The translations under genes were made by a program, and so were the position numbers. Of a stretch of DNA of 31,024 bases, positions 3,529-30,100 are shown one piece after another. How positions within the stretch are numbered: position 1 is the stretch's first letter; every line of letters starts with the position of its first letter. The DNA is from a virus: the IMG/VR virus record IMGVR_UViG_3300046003_001482, positions 1 to 31,024 of that record. One strand, 5' to 3'. The notes under the pieces are model-generated. The model was not told where the DNA came from. It saw nothing but the letters and a program-made list of their open reading frames with translations, and did not search any database.

Positions 3529-4563
3529 ATGACCTTTAAAAAACACATACAAGAAGCTGCAGGAGAAAAACATGGAGTTCTAGCCTATGGGCGTATGAAC
3601 CCACCTACAGCAGGTCATGAGAAAGTTATTAATAAGGTTCATGATGTTGCCAAAGCGCATAATGCTATTCATAAGGTAGTGCTTTCGCATACTACAGGTA
3701 ACGATAGTAACCCATTATCACCGGAAAGTAAGTTAAAGCATGCTAAACATGCATTTCCAGGTACAAATATTAGTGTTGCTACAAAAGAAAAACCAACTAT
3801 TTTACATCATGCTGCTGAAATGTATAAATCCGGTGTAAAGCATTTACACGTAGTTGCAGGTTCAGATAGAGTAGATGAGTACCATAAATTATTACATAAG
3901 TATAATACAGGTGAGCCACAAAAACACGGTGCTTATAAATTTAAATCTATAACGGTTCATTCATCAGGTGAGAGGGATCCAGACGCTGCGGGTTCAGAAG
4001 GCATCTCAGGTACTAAGATGCGGGAACATGCAACTGCAGGTAATAAAAAAGCTTTTCATTCTGGTTTACCTAAGGGTATGAAGCCGGAACATAAGGAAGC
4101 ATTATATCATGATTTACGTAAGAGTATGAATATTAAAGAAGTGTTTGATCCACATCTTAAAGTTTCTGAATATCAGTGGGGCGAGACCAAAGGTGCTAAT
4201 AAGATGAGAGATATGACCCCAGGTGAAAAAGTAAATAAACAACCTGTAAAGAGAAAAGAAATGAGAGAAAGCAGACTACCAGTCTTATTGATGAATGCAT
4301 TTCAGCTGAAACAGTTGAATGAAGAAATATCTCAATTAGAATTCGATGGCATACAAACTAAAAATTTAGAAATGTGCCCAAATGCTTATGAGTTGTTTAA
4401 AGGTATGATTCAAAAGGTAAGGGATGGTGAGATGATTGGAGAACCAGCCGGTCACCAGCAAGCTCCAACTTCTAAAGGAGGCGTTCCAGCTCCTGAGATA
4501 ATGCCAGTTCTTCCTTCTGATACCAGAAAAAAAATGCAGTTTAAATACTATTTGGGAATATAA
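3529..4563 (+). CDS. HxGH-family nucleotidyltransferase (cytidylyl/adenylyltransferase-like) with capsid-targeting-like leader
   Basis: A 344-residue protein. Residues 1-11 are MTFKKHIQEAA, close to the T4 internal-protein leader, with a gp21-like I-x-E site at 7-9. Residues 16-30 hold GRMNPPTAGH, the (H/T)xGH nucleotide-binding motif. ISGTKMR at 159-165 matches the second signature (IS-x-T-x-x-R) of the NMN adenylyltransferase/phosphopantetheine adenylyltransferase superfamily. About 170 residues of unassigned sequence follow. The enzyme fold is well supported; the substrate (NMN, a cytidine donor or other) is not visible. Sitting among virion genes, it may be packaged with DNA and delivered to the host. 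Its stop overlaps the Dps-like gene start (TAATG). Confidence 0.78.
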   Translation: MTFKKHIQEAAGEKHGVLAYGRMNPPTAGHEKVINKVHDVAKAHNAIHKVVLSHTTGNDSNPLSPESKLKHAKHAFPGTNISVATKEKPTILHHAAEMYKSGVKHLHVVAGSDRVDEYHKLLHKYNTGEPQKHGAYKFKSITVHSSGERDPDAAGSEGISGTKMREHATAGNKKAFHSGLPKGMKPEHKEALYHDLRKSMNIKEVFDPHLKVSEYQWGETKGANKMRDMTPGEKVNKQPVKRKEMRESRLPVLLMNAFQLKQLNEEISQLEFDGIQTKNLEMCPNAYELFKGMIQKVRDGEMIGEPAGHQQAPTSKGGVPAPEIMPVLPSDTRKKMQFKYYLGI

Positions 4564-4991
4564 TGCTATCGGAATCGTTAAAAACAACTCTTGCAGATGC
4601 CTTTACATTTGCATTAAAAGCACAATTTTATCACTGGAATATTGAAGGTGCTGATTTTGCGCAGTATCATGACTTCACACAAGAACTTTATACAGACGTT
4701 CAAACATCGGTTGATGCTATCGCAGAGTTAATTAGATCTACCGATTCTTATGCACCCGGTACACTTACGCGTTTTCAAAGTCTGACTACTATTGAAGAGA
4801 CTGACGTTATACCAGATGCAAGAACAATGCTAGTAAATTTAAGAGTCGAGAATGACAAGTTACTAGCTACTTTATATCGTACCTATAATGATGCAGAAAA
4901 AGAAACTCAGTTTGGTGTTTCAAATTATATACAAGACAGAATTCAGGCGCATGAAAAACATGCATGGATGTTAAAGGCGATAACCAAATGA
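4563..4991 (+). CDS. Dps-like ferritin-family protein
   Basis: A 142-residue protein that reads as a Dps/ferritin-like four-helix bundle. The segment AQFYHWNIEGADFAQYH is followed by ELYTDVQTSVDAIAELI. Dps proteins form 12-mer shells that oxidise and store iron and protect DNA. The inter-subunit ferroxidase ligands His24, His36, Asp51 and Glu55 are present at the family's spacing. The fifth ligand (Asp67 in E. coli Dps) is Gln40 here, with Glu41 next to it. Length is slightly below the usual 150-170, mainly because the N-terminal DNA-binding tail is missing. It sits among virion genes, coupled on both sides, so it may be a virion component. Confidence 0.82.
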   Translation: MLSESLKTTLADAFTFALKAQFYHWNIEGADFAQYHDFTQELYTDVQTSVDAIAELIRSTDSYAPGTLTRFQSLTTIEETDVIPDARTMLVNLRVENDKLLATLYRTYNDAEKETQFGVSNYIQDRIQAHEKHAWMLKAITK

Positions 4992-10767: not shown

Positions 10768-11124
10768 ATGGCTGACTTAATGGCAAAAACAGATATCGAA
10801 ACCGAAACAAGAGTTTCAATATTAGAAAATCAAGTTGAAAATATTACATCTAATGTTGTAAAGCTTGAGACTAAAATTGATAGTAATTACGCAACCTTAC
10901 ATCACCGTATTAGCGATTTAAGGGATGACTTACGTAATGATATTGAAACTAAACATGAAAAATTAATTGCTAAGTTAGACGAAAGAGCGGTGGATAGCTC
11001 TGAGCAGCATAAAGTAATTAGTGAAAAAATTAACTCAATAGAAAAATGGCGATGGATGATGGTAGGCGGTGCTATTGTCGTTGGTTACTTCATAGCTCAT
11101 TTAAGACTTGATAAACTAATTTAG
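10768..11124 (+). CDS. Coiled-coil protein with C-terminal membrane anchor
   Basis: A 118-residue protein. Residues 12-92 are a continuous heptad-rich coiled coil (TRVSILENQVENITSNVVKL, then LDERAVDSSEQHKVISEKI). WRWMMVGGAIVVGYFIAHL at about 94-112 is a single membrane segment at the C-terminus, followed by RLDKLI. This architecture resembles XhlA/haemolysin-like phage membrane proteins, but the sequence is too low in complexity to be sure. It is the last gene of the virion-side block, just before a terminator. A lysis or membrane role is possible. Confidence 0.55.
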   Translation: MADLMAKTDIETETRVSILENQVENITSNVVKLETKIDSNYATLHHRISDLRDDLRNDIETKHEKLIAKLDERAVDSSEQHKVISEKINSIEKWRWMMVGGAIVVGYFIAHLRLDKLI

Positions 11125-11153
11125 TTGATATATTCTAGGTAGTACAGTATAAT
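11125..11153 (+). promoter_or_regulatory. Sigma70-type promoter for the primase operon
   Basis: TTGATA at 11125-11130 and TATAAT at 11148-11153 are separated by exactly 17 bases. A start point near 11160 would produce a leader of about 24 bases before the primase ATG at 11184. It overlaps the terminator hairpin that follows. Confidence 0.65.
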
Positions 11154-11154
11154 T

Positions 11155-11178
11155 AGACCTCTATATGGGGTCTTTTTT
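11155..11178 (+). terminator. Intrinsic terminator of the virion gene block
   Basis: AGACC at 11155-11159 pairs with GGTCT at 11169-11173, with a 9-base loop, and runs into six T residues at 11173-11178. It closes transcription coming from the coiled-coil gene. The stem is short, so termination may be partial. Confidence 0.6.
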
Positions 11179-11183
11179 AATTT

Positions 11184-12197
11184 ATGTCTATATACCTTGA
11201 TCAAAAATACTTATTGTTAATAAGTAATCGCCTGCCCCTTTTCAAAAAGAAAAACGATACTACCTATAACTGTAGGTGTGTTATCTGTGGTGACTCTCAA
11301 AAGAATAGACGTAAAGCTCGAGGTTACTTCTTCAGCTATAAAACTGATATTCGGTATAAGTGTTATAACTGCGACATATCTTTAAGCTTTTCAAACTTTT
11401 TAAAACAGCAGGACGCTAACATATACTCTCAGTATGCTTTAGAGAAGTATAGTGAAGGTCACAATAAATCAGCTAATGCAGTACCGGAGTTTAAATTTGA
11501 AGAGCCGGTATTTAAGACGCCGCAAGAAAAGCTAATCGATAAACTGCTAGATCGATTAGATACATTACCAGATGATAACGAAGCAGTTATATTTTGTACC
11601 GGTAGAAAGATACCTAAAAATAGATTTAAACAGCTGTATTACATAGATAATATTAAAAATATTGTACAATTAAATGAAAAATATAAAGAAAGTATCCAAG
11701 GAAAAGAACCTAGACTGGTATTACCGTTTTATGATAATAACGGGCAATTATCTGGGGTTACCTGTAGAGCATTACGAGGTGAAGCACTTCGATATATTAC
11801 GGTTAAAGTTAAAGAAGACGTCCCACTCATCTTCGGTATAGATAGTATAGATAAACTTAACCCTGTATATGTTGTAGAAGGACCTATCGATAGTTTATTT
11901 TTGCCTAATAGTATTGCGATCGGAGGTACATCTTTCGGTAAAATACATGAGTTAGATATTGAGAAAGAGCGTATAATTATTGTATTTGATAATCAACCTA
12001 GAAATAAAGAAGTATGTAAACTAATAGAGAAGAATATCGATAAAGGTTATCAGGTAGTTATATGGCCTCAGAATCTATTAGAAAAAGATATTAATGAAAT
12101 GGTGCTAGCTGGCCGTAGTGTAGCTAAGATTTTAAAAGAGAATACTTTTAAAGGGCTTACTGCGATGACTAAATATATTGCTTGGAAAAGATGCTAA
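11184..12197 (+). CDS. 61: DNA primase, T4 gp61-like
   Basis: A 337-residue primase that would make RNA primers for lagging-strand synthesis together with the gp41 helicase, which is not in this window. An N-terminal zinc ribbon has C32-V-I-C35 and C60-Y-N-C63. A Toprim domain follows in the C-terminal half, with the acidic motif VVEGPIDSLF and the downstream IIIVFDNQPRN that supplies metal-binding Asp. Length agrees with T4 gp61 (342). The start follows the terminator region and a promoter at 11125-11153. Its TAA overlaps the ThyX ATG. It is the first gene of the replication half of the window. Confidence 0.88.
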   Translation: MSIYLDQKYLLLISNRLPLFKKKNDTTYNCRCVICGDSQKNRRKARGYFFSYKTDIRYKCYNCDISLSFSNFLKQQDANIYSQYALEKYSEGHNKSANAVPEFKFEEPVFKTPQEKLIDKLLDRLDTLPDDNEAVIFCTGRKIPKNRFKQLYYIDNIKNIVQLNEKYKESIQGKEPRLVLPFYDNNGQLSGVTCRALRGEALRYITVKVKEDVPLIFGIDSIDKLNPVYVVEGPIDSLFLPNSIAIGGTSFGKIHELDIEKERIIIVFDNQPRNKEVCKLIEKNIDKGYQVVIWPQNLLEKDINEMVLAGRSVAKILKENTFKGLTAMTKYIAWKRC

Positions 12198-23837: not shown

Positions 23838-24596
23838 ATGTCCAATAAAAGAGTATCTAAGCTCGCAATAGTCCCCGACAACAATGAGAAGCCCGTAGTA
23901 AATAGAAACAACACACTTAGATTAAAAATAGACAACCTTAAGACATTTGATCCACTAACACCTAACCAGAAAAAATTCTTTGAAGCTTATAAACGAGGAG
24001 ATTATTTTATTGCATTACACGGGGTAGCAGGTACCGGTAAATCTTTTATTGCATTATACAAAGCATTAGAAGAAGTGTTAGATAAATCTAACCCATTCAA
24101 TAAAATTATTATAGTTAGATCAGCGGTTCAGTCTAGAGACATGGGGCACTTACCCGGAGACATCGACGAAAAATTAGATATATATCAACAACCGTATCAT
24201 CAAATTTGTACTACATTATTTGATAGAAAAGACGCCTATGATCGTCTAGTAGAACAAAATCATATTGAGTTTATATCTACATCGTTTATTAGAGGTATGT
24301 CGTTTGATGATGCTATTATTATTGTTGATGAAATGCAGAACATGAATTTTGAAGAAATTGATACGGTAATGACGCGAGTGGGTACTAGATCAAAAATTAT
24401 ATGGTGCGGTGATTATAGACAAACGGATCTACGTAAGAGTAATGATAAGTCAGGTATACTAAAGTTTTTTGATATTGCATACCATATGGGTGCATTTACA
24501 AGAATAGAATTTGAAGTAGAGGACATTGTAAGAAGTTCTCTAGTACGCGATTATATTATGGCTAAAATTAAACACGAGGACTTAATAAAAGAATGA
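23838..24596 (+). CDS. phoH: PhoH-like ATPase
   Basis: A 252-residue P-loop NTPase. Walker A is GVAGTGKS at 62-69 and Walker B is AIIIVDEMQNMNFEE, with GDYRQTDL as the sensor-like motif. The family is very common in marine phages and was once linked to phosphate stress; helicase-type RNA work is now considered likely, but the phage role is not settled. An N-terminal extension of about 35 residues is basic. The gene follows a terminator, with GGGTAAC before ATG as a weak site; no clear promoter was seen. The Fe-S carrier gene starts in its stop (ATGA). Confidence 0.92.
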   Translation: MSNKRVSKLAIVPDNNEKPVVNRNNTLRLKIDNLKTFDPLTPNQKKFFEAYKRGDYFIALHGVAGTGKSFIALYKALEEVLDKSNPFNKIIIVRSAVQSRDMGHLPGDIDEKLDIYQQPYHQICTTLFDRKDAYDRLVEQNHIEFISTSFIRGMSFDDAIIIVDEMQNMNFEEIDTVMTRVGTRSKIIWCGDYRQTDLRKSNDKSGILKFFDIAYHMGAFTRIEFEVEDIVRSSLVRDYIMAKIKHEDLIKE

Positions 24597-24922
24597 TTAC
24601 CCTTACAGAGTCAGCTCAAAATAAAGTTCTTAGTATTTTATCAGAAGAGTCTAACCCAGATATAGCTCTTCGAGTTTTTGTTCAGGGCGGTGGTTGTTCC
24701 GGGTTCTCTTATGGGTTTACATTAGATGATATTCAAAATGAAGACGATTTTCAAGTACCTAGTGAAAGATTTAAATTTTTAGTAGATGCTATGTCGATGC
24801 AATATCTTGAAGGCGCCTCGGTTGATTATGAGAATACTCTGACCGGAGGCCAATTTAAAATAAATAATCCAAATGCTACTGCTTCATGTGGTTGTGGTAG
24901 TAGCTTTACAATAAAGGAGTAA
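24593..24922 (+). CDS. A-type iron-sulfur carrier (ErpA/IscA/HesB family)
   Basis: A 109-residue protein of the family that holds and transfers Fe-S clusters to apo-enzymes. All three conserved cysteines are present: Cys35 in QGGGCSGFSYGF, and Cys99 and Cys101 in ASCGCGSSF. Length and motif spacing are those of ErpA/IscA. It is coupled to phoH by an ATGA overlap and followed by the endolysin gene after an AAGGAG site. Whether it belongs closer to ErpA or IscA cannot be told by eye. In a phage it is an auxiliary gene that could supply clusters to host or phage enzymes. Confidence 0.9.
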   Translation: MITLTESAQNKVLSILSEESNPDIALRVFVQGGGCSGFSYGFTLDDIQNEDDFQVPSERFKFLVDAMSMQYLEGASVDYENTLTGGQFKINNPNATASCGCGSSFTIKE

Positions 24923-25572: not shown

Positions 25573-26241
25573 ATGTTTAATCATGTAAAGTTAGACCGTG
25601 AAGTACCGAAATTGACTCAGTTGAACGAAGATGGTGTTAGACATTACGTAACACCAGAAGGTAATAAGTATCCTTCTATTACAACTGTTTTATCTGAGTA
25701 TAGTAGGCAAGGTATTATGGAATGGAGGAAGCGGGTAGGCAATGAAGAAGCTAATAGAGTTTCTGGTAAGGCGTCTACTCGCGGTACTAAGTTACATAAG
25801 GCTTGCGAGTCATATTTAGACAATATGGAGCCTGTATTTAAAACTCCGTATGAACTAGACTTGTTTAATCGATTCAAAAGTACATTGCACCGTATCGATA
25901 ATATTCATGCTCAAGAGCTACGAATGTATTCCGACCATTTACGTATCGCAGGTACTGTAGACTGTATAGGGGAATTTGATGGTAAGTTATCTGTTATTGA
26001 CTTTAAGACAGCAGCAAAGCCAAAGGATAGAAGTTACATCGAAAATTACTTCATGCAATGCTCAGCCTACGCTATTATGTTTGAAGAAAAGTTTGATATC
26101 CCTATTTCGCAGATCGTAATTGCAGTTGCTGTGGAAGACGGTGACCCGCAAGTCTTTATCGAGAAAAGAGACACGCATGTTAAACGATTGTTACACTTTC
26201 GGGATCTTTATGAACGAAAGAGTGGATTAGTTGTTGCTTAG
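25573..26241 (+). CDS. PD-(D/E)XK exonuclease, Cas4/RecB-like
   Basis: A 222-residue nuclease of the kind found in many marine T4-like phages. RGTKLHKACESYL provides the first helix with conserved His. GTVDCIGEFDGKLSVIDFKTA provides the Asp and the D-x-K catalytic core. YFMQCSAYAIMFEEKF is the QxxxY helix typical of RecB-type nucleases. No cysteine cluster of the Cas4 type is present. It probably processes DNA ends in recombination or host DNA breakdown. Its final codons overlap the -10 region of the possible tmRNA promoter. Confidence 0.83.
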   Translation: MFNHVKLDREVPKLTQLNEDGVRHYVTPEGNKYPSITTVLSEYSRQGIMEWRKRVGNEEANRVSGKASTRGTKLHKACESYLDNMEPVFKTPYELDLFNRFKSTLHRIDNIHAQELRMYSDHLRIAGTVDCIGEFDGKLSVIDFKTAAKPKDRSYIENYFMQCSAYAIMFEEKFDIPISQIVIAVAVEDGDPQVFIEKRDTHVKRLLHFRDLYERKSGLVVA

Positions 26242-26245
26242 CCTG

Positions 26246-26251
26246 TATAAT
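26246..26251 (+). promoter_or_regulatory. Possible -10 box for the tmRNA locus
   Basis: TATAAT directly after the exonuclease stop region, preceded by TG. The best -35 at 17 bases is TGGATT (26223-26228), which is poor. A start near 26258 would give the acceptor piece first. A TATAAATA at 26280-26287 is an alternative late-type promoter. Confidence 0.35.
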
Positions 26252-26257
26252 CTATAT

Positions 26258-26356
26258 GTGGGCGGTTGAGATACTGCACTATAAATAGTAATATGATCGT
26301 ATGAAGTTGAATGAAAAGTATTCTGGACGAGGGTTCGATTCCCTCCATCTCCACCA
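26258..26356 (+). ncRNA. tmRNA acceptor piece
   Basis: Ends with a T-arm GAGGG (26329-26333), loop TTCGATT (26334-26340) and CCCTC (26341-26345), then CATCTCC, the discriminator A26353 and CCA. TTCTGGACGA before the T-arm resembles the E. coli tmRNA segment TTTCGGACGC. The 5' limit is set only by a possible promoter. No anticodon arm exists, so this is not a tRNA. Confidence 0.85.
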
Positions 26357-26415
26357 GAAACATTCTTGTCCATGGAGTTGGGAACGGGCAGATAAACCGT
26401 GAGAGTGTTTCTGAT
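26357..26415 (+). other. Intervening segment of the permuted tmRNA
   Basis: Lies between the encoded CCA and the first G of the coding piece and would be cut out during maturation. Its ends continue the acceptor helix: 26346-26369 pairs with 26399-26422 over 24 pairs including six G-U. The loop at 26370-26398 is unassigned. Confidence 0.75.
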
Positions 26416-26501
26416 GGGGATGACCTGGTCTCGACAGGGTAACAAGTAAAGATATGGACGATTCGGTAGGCGATGACCGTAAATCAAGCAAAATAGTAAA
26501 T

Positions 26502-26534
26502 GCAAACGATGAAAAGTTCGCTTTAGCCGCTTAA
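26502..26534 (+). other. tmRNA tag reading frame, ANDEKFALAA
   Basis: Codons GCA AAC GAT GAA AAG TTC GCT TTA GCC GCT then TAA. The tag ends ALAA like E. coli ANDENYALAA, which ClpXP recognises. With E. coli spacing after TAGT, the resume codon could be AAT at 26499, giving an extra N-terminal Asn. Confidence 0.85.
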
Positions 26535-26597
26535 GGTTAAATGAGGTTTCGCTAGCTGTCCTGACTAATCAATCAGCTAGCACGTATAAATAGTTAT

Positions 26598-26628
26598 AAC
26601 GGTTGGTAGACCCGTTTTAAAACTACCA
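26598..26628 (+). other. H-type pseudoknot in the tmRNA coding piece
   Basis: AACGG (26598-26602) pairs with CCGTT (26612-26616). TGGTAG (26604-26609) pairs with CTACCA (26623-26628). Connecting loops are 1, 2 and 6 bases, the last TTAAAA, as in a classical pseudoknot with an A-rich third loop. Confidence 0.65.
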
Positions 26629-26651
26629 TCACACAAACACAGGAGATTAAT

Positions 26652-26924
26652 ATGAGTAATATGACACCGTTCGAGATTCGCCTAGAACTTTTAAAAATGG
26701 CTAAAGACATGCTTTCCGATGAGTATTACGGTAAGCGAGAAGTAATTGGCAACGACTGGACAACTAAAGTCGAAGCTGCAAGACACGCAGGTCAACCAGC
26801 ACCTGATCATCCAGGCTTTCCAGCCTATCCATCCGAAACAGAAATCATCCTTAAAGCACAAGTCTTGAACGGATTCGTTTCGAATATACCTACAGATACA
26901 AAACACACTTCTACCAAGAAGTAA
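26652..26924 (+). CDS. Conserved marine T4-like phage protein, 90 aa
   Basis: Preceded by an AGGAG site ten bases before ATG, right after the tmRNA locus. The start MSNMTPFEIRLELLKMAKDM is a helix I recall as highly conserved in marine myophages, but with no assigned role. The middle has a Pro-rich segment (GQPAPDHPGFPAYPSE) and the end another helix (IILKAQVLNGFVSNIP). Soluble, with no cysteines or metal motif. A TATAAATA at 26585-26592 could drive it late in infection. Confidence 0.6.
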   Translation: MSNMTPFEIRLELLKMAKDMLSDEYYGKREVIGNDWTTKVEAARHAGQPAPDHPGFPAYPSETEIILKAQVLNGFVSNIPTDTKHTSTKK

Positions 26925-27512: not shown

Positions 27513-27833
27513 ATGGATAAGCTAATTGATTTCATTACATATATTCGCAATTATATTACTGATTATCTAGATAATTTCTCACAAGCAACAGCAGATACTT
27601 TTGCTTGGATTAGTATTATTGTTTTAAATCTTTGCACTATACCAACATATCTAGCTGTTATGTCAGGTGTTACAGATAAAATGCCTCCGTTGGATATGAC
27701 ACTACTCTTATGGGCAGGTCTGTTGCTTTATTTTGTAAGATCAGCTATAATTAAGGATATGTTGATGGTGTTTACAATTGGTGTAGGCTTTGCTATTCAA
27801 TCTATTTTACTAGGATTAATTTACTTCGTATGA
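27513..27833 (+). CDS. Small three-span membrane protein, holin candidate
   Basis: A 106-residue protein with an amphipathic N-terminal 28 residues and three predicted membrane segments (about 30-51, 60-78 and 84-105). It comes three bases after the SleB-like hydrolase gene and overlaps gene 33 (ATGA). Size and topology would suit a class I holin, and no other holin is evident in the window, but sequence does not identify it. Alternatively it is a conserved phage membrane protein of other function. Confidence 0.5.
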   Translation: MDKLIDFITYIRNYITDYLDNFSQATADTFAWISIIVLNLCTIPTYLAVMSGVTDKMPPLDMTLLLWAGLLLYFVRSAIIKDMLMVFTIGVGFAIQSILLGLIYFV

Positions 27834-28093
27834 CAGATGAAACTCAAGTACTTACTGATAGTTTAGTAATTACAAAACGATTTAGATCACCCAATGAATT
27901 TAGCATGTACATTGATGAGATTGTAACGCAGTTTAAAATAGGGTACATGGATGCAGTAATTAATTACTGTAGTGAGAAAGACATTGATGTGGACAGTATT
28001 GGTCCATTAATTGGTCAGAAATTAAGAGAAAAAATTCAAATGGAAGCTGAGCAGGCTAATATGATTAAACCAAGAGGTCATCTACCTATATGA
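27830..28093 (+). CDS. 33: Late transcription coactivator, T4 gp33-like
   Basis: An 87-residue protein. In T4, gp33 bridges RNA polymerase, the gp55 sigma factor and the sliding clamp to activate late promoters. Here YIDEIVTQFKIGYMDAVINY, then DSIGPLIGQKLREKIQMEAE and the short C-terminal MIKPRGHLPI follow the pattern of marine T4-like gp33 proteins as I recall it. The hydrophobic C-terminal end is the clamp-binding element. Its position directly before gene 59 and near gene 32 matches T4 order, which strengthens the call. gp55 is not in the window. Confidence 0.72.
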   Translation: MTDETQVLTDSLVITKRFRSPNEFSMYIDEIVTQFKIGYMDAVINYCSEKDIDVDSIGPLIGQKLREKIQMEAEQANMIKPRGHLPI

Positions 28094-28701
28094 TTACTAT
28101 GGAACCGTTTAAGGTATACCAGTATTATCTAGCTTTGAGATTGCACTTTACGACTGATAATTATGATGTGATTAAGCAGCAAGGTAGAGTACGAGCATCT
28201 AAGCAGTCATTCTTTAAACGTAAGGATTTATTAGCTATTAAACGAGTAGCTGAGACTTATTCAGATAAAGATATTGTAGATTTTTTAGTATCTAATTTTG
28301 TATCTGGTGATCGGTGGGGTGGTGTATTTGATATTGAGGCTAAAGACCGGTACATTAGTTGGAAGAAGCGTATGGAATCAATTTCTTATACGTTTGAAAA
28401 AGAAATTGGTAAAGCTGTACTAAGTATGGAAAAGCAGAATTTAACTGCTAAAGATCTTTTCATTATACAAAGCCATCAACACCCCCCTATCATTAAGATG
28501 TTTCTGCGTAATGATGTCTCCATCGAAACTTTAGTAATCCTAAATAAACTAAATAACTTCACAGATCTATTTGATGCTAAGTTGGAAGGCGATCTAGTAT
28601 GGCCTGATATCTCTAGAGTTATTAAAAAATACTCACCATTTTTGAATATACAAAAAGAAAAATATGAAGAACTATTCAAACGATCCACAAGAAATGATTG
28701 A
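28090..28701 (+). CDS. 59: Replicative helicase loader, T4 gp59-like
   Basis: A 203-residue protein close in length to T4 gp59 (217), which loads gp41 helicase onto gp32-coated forks. The N-terminal part VYQYYLALRLHFTTDNYDVI parallels T4 VYKLYLMIKQHMNGKYDVIK. The stretches FFKRKD, FLVSNFVSGDRWGGV and SYTFEKEIGK match further T4 blocks (KRRDKYFFQ, FISNLVANQDAW, FKFEEDI). ATGA overlap with gene 33. All helical, as known for the family. With gp61 and gp32 it makes most of the T4-type lagging-strand set. Confidence 0.9.
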   Translation: MITMEPFKVYQYYLALRLHFTTDNYDVIKQQGRVRASKQSFFKRKDLLAIKRVAETYSDKDIVDFLVSNFVSGDRWGGVFDIEAKDRYISWKKRMESISYTFEKEIGKAVLSMEKQNLTAKDLFIIQSHQHPPIIKMFLRNDVSIETLVILNKLNNFTDLFDAKLEGDLVWPDISRVIKKYSPFLNIQKEKYEELFKRSTRND

Positions 28702-29212: not shown

Positions 29213-30100
29213 ATGGCATTAGATTTTAACGCTCTGAAGAAGAGCCGTGGTACTTTCGATAGCTTGATGAAAGAAGTCGAGAAGATTGCAACACCACAAA
29301 CTCAAGATAACACTAAGGATGACCGCTTCTGGCAACCAGAGGTAGATAAAGCCGGTAACGGTTATGCAGTCATCCGATTCCTACCACCACCTAAAGGCGA
29401 AGAGCTTCCATGGGTTCGTATTTGGAACCACGGCTTTCAAGGACCTACAGGAAAATGGTATATCGAAAACTCTCTTACAACTCTAGGTAAAGCAGATCCA
29501 GTTTCTGAATTGAATACTGAATTGTGGGCTACTGGTGTAGAGGCTAATAAAGATATCGTACGTAAGCAGAAGCGTCGATTGACTTATGTGGCTAATATAT
29601 ACATTGTTAAAGACCCAGCACACCCAGAGAATGAAGGCAAAGTATGTCTTTATAAATTTGGTAAGAAGATCTTTGATAAGATTAAAGATGTAATGCAGCC
29701 GCAGTATGAAGATGAGTCACCAATTAATCCTTTTGATTTCTGGAAGGGTGCTAACTTTAAACTTAAGATTCGTAATGTAGAAGGATATCGCAATTACGAT
29801 AAGTCTGAGTTTGAAGCTACTAGTGCTTTAGGTGAGGATGACGATCTAGAGGCAGTATGGGTTAAGCAACATTCATTGGCAGAGTTCTTAGATCCAAAGA
29901 ACTTTAAGTCGTATAGTGAATTGAAGACTAAACTTGAATCAGTACTTACAGGTGCTGCAAATGCACCTCGTGCTGAAGAGACTCAACTAGAAGATATTCC
30001 TCGCCCTGTAGCATTGAAGCCAGTACCTAAGAAAGAAGATAACTTTGATGATGCTGATGATTCATTATCTTATTTTGCTAAATTAGCCAACGACGACTGA
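29213..30100 (+). CDS. 32: Single-stranded DNA-binding protein, T4 gp32-like
   Basis: A 295-residue protein that coats ssDNA in replication, recombination and repair. The N-terminal LAST-type basic region (KKSRGTFDSLMKEVEK) would give cooperativity. The OB-fold core includes WVRIWNHGFQGPTGKWYIEN, RRLTYVANIYIVKDPAHPEN and YKFGKKIFDKIKDVM, close to T4. The C-terminal end is acidic (DNFDDADDSLSYFAKL), the protein-interaction tail. The T4 zinc-binding cysteines are absent: the region after WYIEN reads SLTTLGKADPVSELN. A strong AAGGAG site precedes ATG. Confidence 0.95.
   Translation: MALDFNALKKSRGTFDSLMKEVEKIATPQTQDNTKDDRFWQPEVDKAGNGYAVIRFLPPPKGEELPWVRIWNHGFQGPTGKWYIENSLTTLGKADPVSELNTELWATGVEANKDIVRKQKRRLTYVANIYIVKDPAHPENEGKVCLYKFGKKIFDKIKDVMQPQYEDESPINPFDFWKGANFKLKIRNVEGYRNYDKSEFEATSALGEDDDLEAVWVKQHSLAEFLDPKNFKSYSELKTKLESVLTGAANAPRAEETQLEDIPRPVALKPVPKKEDNFDDADDSLSYFAKLANDD

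Follow-up and report, generated by a model that had tools for sequence, protein, structure and literature searches.

A circularly permuted, beta-type tmRNA gene in a T4-like virus contig, and the permuted tmRNAs of related phages

A two-piece tmRNA has been described in Methylophilales phage Melnitz (Kyanoviridae, T4-like), in a study that counted 53 such RNAs in phage genomes, 50 of them aquatic, and 17 permuted tmRNAs among 47 Melnitz-like contigs (PMC9004378). Its authors already proposed a function in translation maintenance or selective tagging, and placed the Melnitz tmRNA under an early, sigma-70 promoter. SsrA is annotated at a matching locus, exonuclease - tmRNA - gp33 - gp59 - gp32, in the GenBank records of Melnitz (MZ577097) and Pelagibacter phage Mosig (MT647606). 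The earlier note on the DNA analysed here had asked whether such an RNA was on record for related phages; these three sources answer that it was. The phage two-piece tmRNA is already known in kind, and the copy reported here is a further, beta-type member. What is new is its long maintenance, the register of its promoter and the ORFs nested in the linkers of its relatives.

The window, i.e. the whole stretch of 31,024 nucleotides that was analysed, is a 31-kb IMG/VR virus contig with a T4-like gene set: primase, both ribonucleotide reductase subunits, an RNase H-like exonuclease, PhoH, endolysin, gp59, gp32 and gp33. By eye, a Dps/ferritin-like protein (4563–4991) and an IscA/HesB-like iron-sulphur protein (24593–24922) can be recognised as well. 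All genes and RNA features of the window located below lie on the plus strand. Directly upstream of the tmRNA is a PD-(D/E)XK-type exonuclease (25573–26241; PHROG_298, E 3.4e-75); directly downstream is an unnamed phage protein of 90 aa (26652–26924), which has no Pfam or PHROG match in profile searches and has homologues in 48 of the fetched loci. The phage flanks pointed out in the earlier note are thus real on both sides. Further on come the late-transcription coactivator gp33 (27830–28093; PF16805, E 9.6e-19; PHROG_254, E 8e-19), the DNA helicase loader gp59 (28090–28701; PHROG_269, E 1.1e-58) and the single-stranded DNA binding protein gp32 (29213–30100; PHROG_224, E 2.4e-115), the last about 57% identical to gp32 of Pelagibacter phage HTVC008M and of cyanophages.

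The window carries a complete circularly permuted tmRNA gene at 26293 to about 26582. The earlier note had proposed a phage-encoded, permuted two-piece tmRNA and named Rfam covariance models as the means of checking it. Run on the whole window, Rfam gives two significant, overlapping matches and no others: RF04321 (tmRNA_permuted) at 26295–26534, with 148.3 bits over the full model (1–213) and a gathering cut-off of 47 bits, and RF01850 (beta_tmRNA) at 26245–26589, with 136.7 bits, E 6.6e-42, over the whole model (1–331). Independently, ARAGORN calls a permuted tmRNA (tmRNA*) at 26264–26625 with the tag ANDEKFALAA. The interval first given, 26258–26632, marks the right locus and is wider than the RNA itself, the likely mature pieces being 26293–26356 and 26416 to about 26582, as judged from the sequence.

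The acceptor half, with its CCA, precedes the coding half, and the acceptor stem forms between the two. The acceptor (3′ tRNA-like) piece, 26293–26356, is matched by RF04321 from 26295, and we place its 5′ end by the promoter register described below. It consists of the distal P2 strand GATCGT (26295–26300), found by helix search with its partner ACGATT at 26458–26463; the T stem-loop GAGGG-TTCGATT-CCCTC (26329–26345; RF04321 alignment); the acceptor 3′ strand CATCTCC (26346–26352); A73 (26353); and the encoded CCA (26354–26356). After a linker of 59 nt that would be excised (26357–26415), the coding (5′) piece runs from 26416 to 26582, its 3′ end being approximate (RF04321, RF01850 and fold), and holds the acceptor 5′ strand GGGGATG (26416–26422), the mRNA-like domain and a terminal hairpin, GCTAGCTG..CAGCTAGC (26551–26581), which is paired in the predicted fold. 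Both piece ends at the linker, and the stem GGGGATG/CATCTCC with its G3-U70 pair, are as the earlier note had read them: all seven acceptor pairs form, and the alanine identity pair G3-U70, A73 and CCA are all present. The tag frame ANDEKFALAA* (GCA..TAA, 26502–26534) likewise ends in ALAA as first noticed, and has the resume Ala codon, the hydrophobic AA end and the stop. Acceptor stem and T arm are present in the predicted fold of the precursor, as is a long stem in the linker; the linker ends pair as GAAACA..TGTTTC and so lengthen the acceptor stem. Compared with dinucleotide shuffles, the fold has z -3.1 as a whole and z -3.4 for the acceptor/linker part.

When the alpha, beta and cyano models are compared, RF01850 outscores its clan competitor on the window tmRNA, the lower-scoring clan match being left out of the Rfam output. 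In the tree, a branch with 99/99 support divides the beta side, where the window RNA falls, from Melnitz, Mosig and several marine relatives, and the window RNA does not group with the alpha-type tmRNAs of Melnitz and Mosig; on the beta side, the branching order of phage and bacterial RNAs is without resolution. By both sequence comparisons the window tmRNA is of beta type. The SAR11 host implied in the earlier note is thus without support. A betaproteobacterial host would be a guess. Of 200 genomes sampled from the order to which Herbaspirillum belongs, just 8 have an undoubted permuted tmRNA; a DNA pattern scan for permuted tmRNA in bacteria hit Herbaspirillum alone.

Melnitz shares with the window the permuted tmRNA, the gene order PhoH, PD-DEXK nuclease, tmRNA, gp33, gp59, gp32, and a late promoter element, TATAAATA, in matching register. 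It differs in its alpha-type RNA with the tag ANDNYVPVDYALAA and a linker of 142 nt rather than 59, and in having a glutamine riboswitch (PMC9004378), for which the window gives no Rfam match. Mosig (EXVC030M) has a permuted tmRNA, annotated in GenBank, at the matching locus; unlike the window RNA, it sits on a long divergent alpha-side branch, has the short tag GEDNFALAA and lacks a late element at the upstream register. The permuted tmRNAs of betaproteobacteria (RF01850; loci L127–L131 and Herbaspirillum L124) are alike in architecture, in the T loop TTCGATT and in tags such as ANDERFALAA, and have a sigma-70 -10 box at about the register of the phage late promoter; their bacterial promoter, genomic place and linkers of 24–40 nt set them apart. 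Finally, Stenotrophomonas phages Yut2 and DLP6 encode permuted tmRNAs whose P2 region has the GTATGA of the window's relatives. These lie within a tRNA cluster, however, not beside the exonuclease, and have the unusual tags VAANDDSYTVRIAA and ANDDSFAPMAIAA. The DLP6 gene (L158, 1478–1821, tag ANDDSFAPMAIAA) is unannotated in the published genome. In crAss-like phage cr50_1 (L159, 975–1470), an annotated tmRNA is called permuted by ARAGORN with the odd tag GNNFVTDYTAIGA, and failed the acceptor-stem test.

With the exonuclease and gp59 as queries, viral contigs yielded a first set of 106 further loci. Where 2.5 kb or more of sequence follows a related exonuclease gene, ARAGORN finds a permuted tmRNA in 44 of 55 loci, usually less than 1 kb away; the 11 of 55 without a call suggest that some relatives may do without the gene. 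Two loci lacking a call, L011 and L042, have a tmRNA in or near the locus by RF04321, which matches in 14 of 17 related records, these two included. A second search, with the Melnitz exonuclease as query, yielded 80 marine loci and 42 more tmRNA calls. These protein-anchored searches recovered relatives better than a DNA pattern for the exact permuted arrangement, which found five viral contigs only, because most relatives have another T loop. About 33 of 56 related tmRNAs carry TGCAAAT or TGCGAAT there, thus with a G in the place of pseudouridine 55 of tRNAs; TTCGATT is kept in the window. At the DNA level, the window shows only short T-arm matches to isolate phages and no direct similarity to plasmids. 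In phage C48C1, the closest isolate by exonuclease, no tmRNA is annotated in the stretch downstream of that gene.

In the first set, all 56 distinct tmRNAs form the complete acceptor stem (7/7), which comes in seven versions; the 7/7 figure is slightly favoured by a search that demanded at least six of seven pairs. Pairs 4, 5 and 6 vary on both sides in a compensatory way (CG/GC/TA, CG/GC/AT, TA/CG/AT) and G3-U70 is constant in all 56. The T stem is paired in 277 of 280 cells, with compensatory changes, and the distal P2 helix occurs in matched versions (GATCGT/ACGATC, TGCTGT/ACAGCA, AGTCGT/ACGACT). Pairing, covariation and the tag constraint discussed below are the pattern expected if selection maintains a tmRNA that works and tags. 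The permuted tmRNA is an old, maintained and syntenic part of this phage family, not a chance pick-up.

In T4, the late promoter element lies at -13 to -6 from the start. A T4-type late element, TATAAATA, occupies 26280–26287 of the window, so this spacing predicts a transcription start at 26293, 2 nt ahead of the P2 helix. The register is common to relatives: NATAAATA or NCTAAATA starts -47 to -42 from the T-arm GAC in 17 of 43 clusters of upstream sequences, 13 of the 17 having the strict NATAAATA, while shuffled controls give a mean of 0.26 and a maximum of 3 clusters (2000 shuffles). A mere motif count was rejected as evidence for late promoters, and only the shared register counts: in the whole window, TATAAATA is found five times with 6.7 expected, i.e. 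at chance level. A scan for sigma-70 promoters and terminators at the tmRNA locus was also at chance level. In several other lineages, and in some bacterial beta tmRNAs, a sigma-70 -10 box stands at about the register of the late element, and the RF01850 model itself has UAuAAU there. Late elements and -10 boxes sharing one register suggest that the acceptor piece probably begins where transcription starts, these phages having installed a late promoter of their own at that register.

Melnitz has TATAAATA in the register of the window with TTGACA 17 bases before it; from its sequence, either the published early reading or a late one is possible. The window (at 26246–26251) and close relatives also have TATAAT some 45 nt before the acceptor piece, possibly a second, earlier tmRNA promoter. 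A second TATAAATA, at 26585–26592, probably serves the gene that follows (26652) as its late promoter. In Yut2 (L157, 2415–2846) and in loci L070 and L071, the acceptor piece comes directly after the CCA end of a tRNA gene; there, tRNA 3′ processing may make the 5′ end instead of a promoter.

Linker length among relatives ranges from 11 to 398 nt. The window copy is an empty, structured form: its 59-nt linker has no ORF led by a ribosome-binding site. Among 16 distinct linkers of at least 95 nt, 11 contain an ORF that is led by an RBS-like sequence and covers at least 70% of the linker, some of the 11 being interrelated. When the long linkers are shuffled, with base composition only being kept, on average 0.27 of the set and at most 3 have such an ORF. 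The loci concerned are L160 (Melnitz MZ577097, tmRNA 10985–11437), L161, L184, L192, L034, L059, L073, L112, L205, L202 and L215. Several of these nested ORFs run into the tmRNA coding half, as does that of Melnitz, MFKWLSKTRLVVITRDYFRERNRKADAKIPKYLSG.., whose linker lies at about 46.1–46.3 kb of MZ577097. Others are MFDRLTEFFIKLFKIQEKTPIRYLSG.. in L192/L056, a 32-aa hydrophobic peptide preceded by AAGGAG in L034, and a frame of 124 aa in L059. The linkers of L018, L022, L030, L054, L096 and others encode an Oxidored-like motif (PF09791, best E 5.5e-12). Between L054 and L096 its frame has dN 0.044 and dS 1.65, which points to protein-level constraint; no clear start codon follows the CCA, and in most, not all, of these loci the frame can be read without a stop from an ATG that lies within the acceptor piece.

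Linkers of loci with the same tag may be short and structured or carry an ORF (L171 and L172 versus L161), so the linker looks like a site of exchange. For about even money, the tmRNA locus would be more than a rescue RNA: a late unit whose 5′ end is set by the late promoter and whose excised linker serves as an exchangeable nest of microprotein genes, among them the Oxidored-like cysteine-rich peptide, small membrane proteins, the MFKW/MFDRL family of Melnitz and the 124-aa protein. If this is true, processing of the precursor would strip those nested frames that run into the coding half of their stop codon, making the nested message itself a rescue target. In the parts drawn on here, a 2025 tmRNA survey names a tRNA gene and a repeat among the contents of intervening sequences and makes no mention of linker ORFs of this kind, our search having covered the open-licence literature (PMC11915505).

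We consider it quite probable that the window gene is a working phage ssrA that takes part in ordinary trans-translation late in infection. For the phage gene, anatomy, pairing, tag constraint, conservation and promoter register are established directly, and we infer transcription, processing, charging, rescue and benefit. With gp33 and the late sigma factor of the phage acting on it, host RNA polymerase would start at 26293; the single precursor would fold, with the halves of the tRNA-like domain pairing across the linker. The linker (26357–26415) would then be removed by RNase P and tRNA 3′ processing of the host, leaving two pieces joined through the acceptor stem and P2, and the G3-U70 pair would direct charging by host alanyl-tRNA synthetase. 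Host SmpB would bring the tmRNA to ribosomes that have stalled on mRNA which is broken or lacks a stop; these would move to the ANDEKFALAA frame, the tagged protein going to host proteases. The phage would gain free ribosomes late, when mRNA cleavage and the decay of host transcripts yield stopless messages. The intact tag is consistent with the suggestion, made in the earlier note, that a T4-like myophage maintains ribosome rescue during infection.

SmpB need not be encoded alongside tmRNA, as that of the host can serve. It would have to serve here, since SmpB (PF01668) was found in none of 17 related virus records, mostly fragments, of up to 203 kb, with control genomes positive. The same result would suit a decoy, i.e. 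an RNA that titrates host SmpB or blocks host trans-translation, as is reported of the tag-less tmRNA-like RNA in mycobacteriophage DS6A; a DS6A-like RNA with the tRNA domain only inhibits tmRNA (PMC4131195). A decoy needs no tag, however, and the phage gene keeps its full mRNA-like domain. Moreover, the ALAA end is preserved among relatives through 24 different DNA spellings, so the tag is constrained as a peptide and maintained across synonymous changes. Because the tag is kept, we find the decoy unlikely.

Tagging itself could be the main role, with the phage redirecting proteolysis of chosen proteins through its own tag, as the earlier note also suggested. The variable middle residues of the phage tags (43 peptides in 132 loci) and the unusual ends LMAA, RLVA and RIAA in some phages would agree with this. 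In loci L073 and L074, ARAGORN gives a 21-aa tag, DDRKSSTKINAANDERFALAA; the program probably begins it too early, the real tag being ANDERFALAA. The window tag, however, is of the ordinary AND..ALAA kind, close to ANDERFALAA and ANDENFALAA of beta bacteria, and no change of protease is expected from it. With so ordinary a tag, retargeted proteolysis is improbable for the window RNA.

Since ssrA genes are common integration sites and prophages contain fragments of them, as discussed in PMC9004378, the gene could in principle be a relic of host ssrA, left for example by imprecise excision of an integrated element. A relic would hardly be complete, show no decay in 56 relatives, vary its stems in a compensatory way, stay mostly at a fixed locus and have a phage promoter in register; we reject this very improbable origin on conservation. 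That the gene is bacterial DNA in a misassembled contig, for which nothing more than the bacterial look of the RNA speaks, has a negligible probability and is rejected on the phage genes at both sides and the same arrangement in the isolates Mosig and Melnitz and in many independent contigs.

A split tmRNA is thus present in a large T4-like group and apparently tied to phage late transcription. The family may thereby offer a testable case in which ribosome rescue limits late phage protein synthesis. The nested linker genes, those of cultured Melnitz included, would put the spacer of the permuted tmRNA to a new use.
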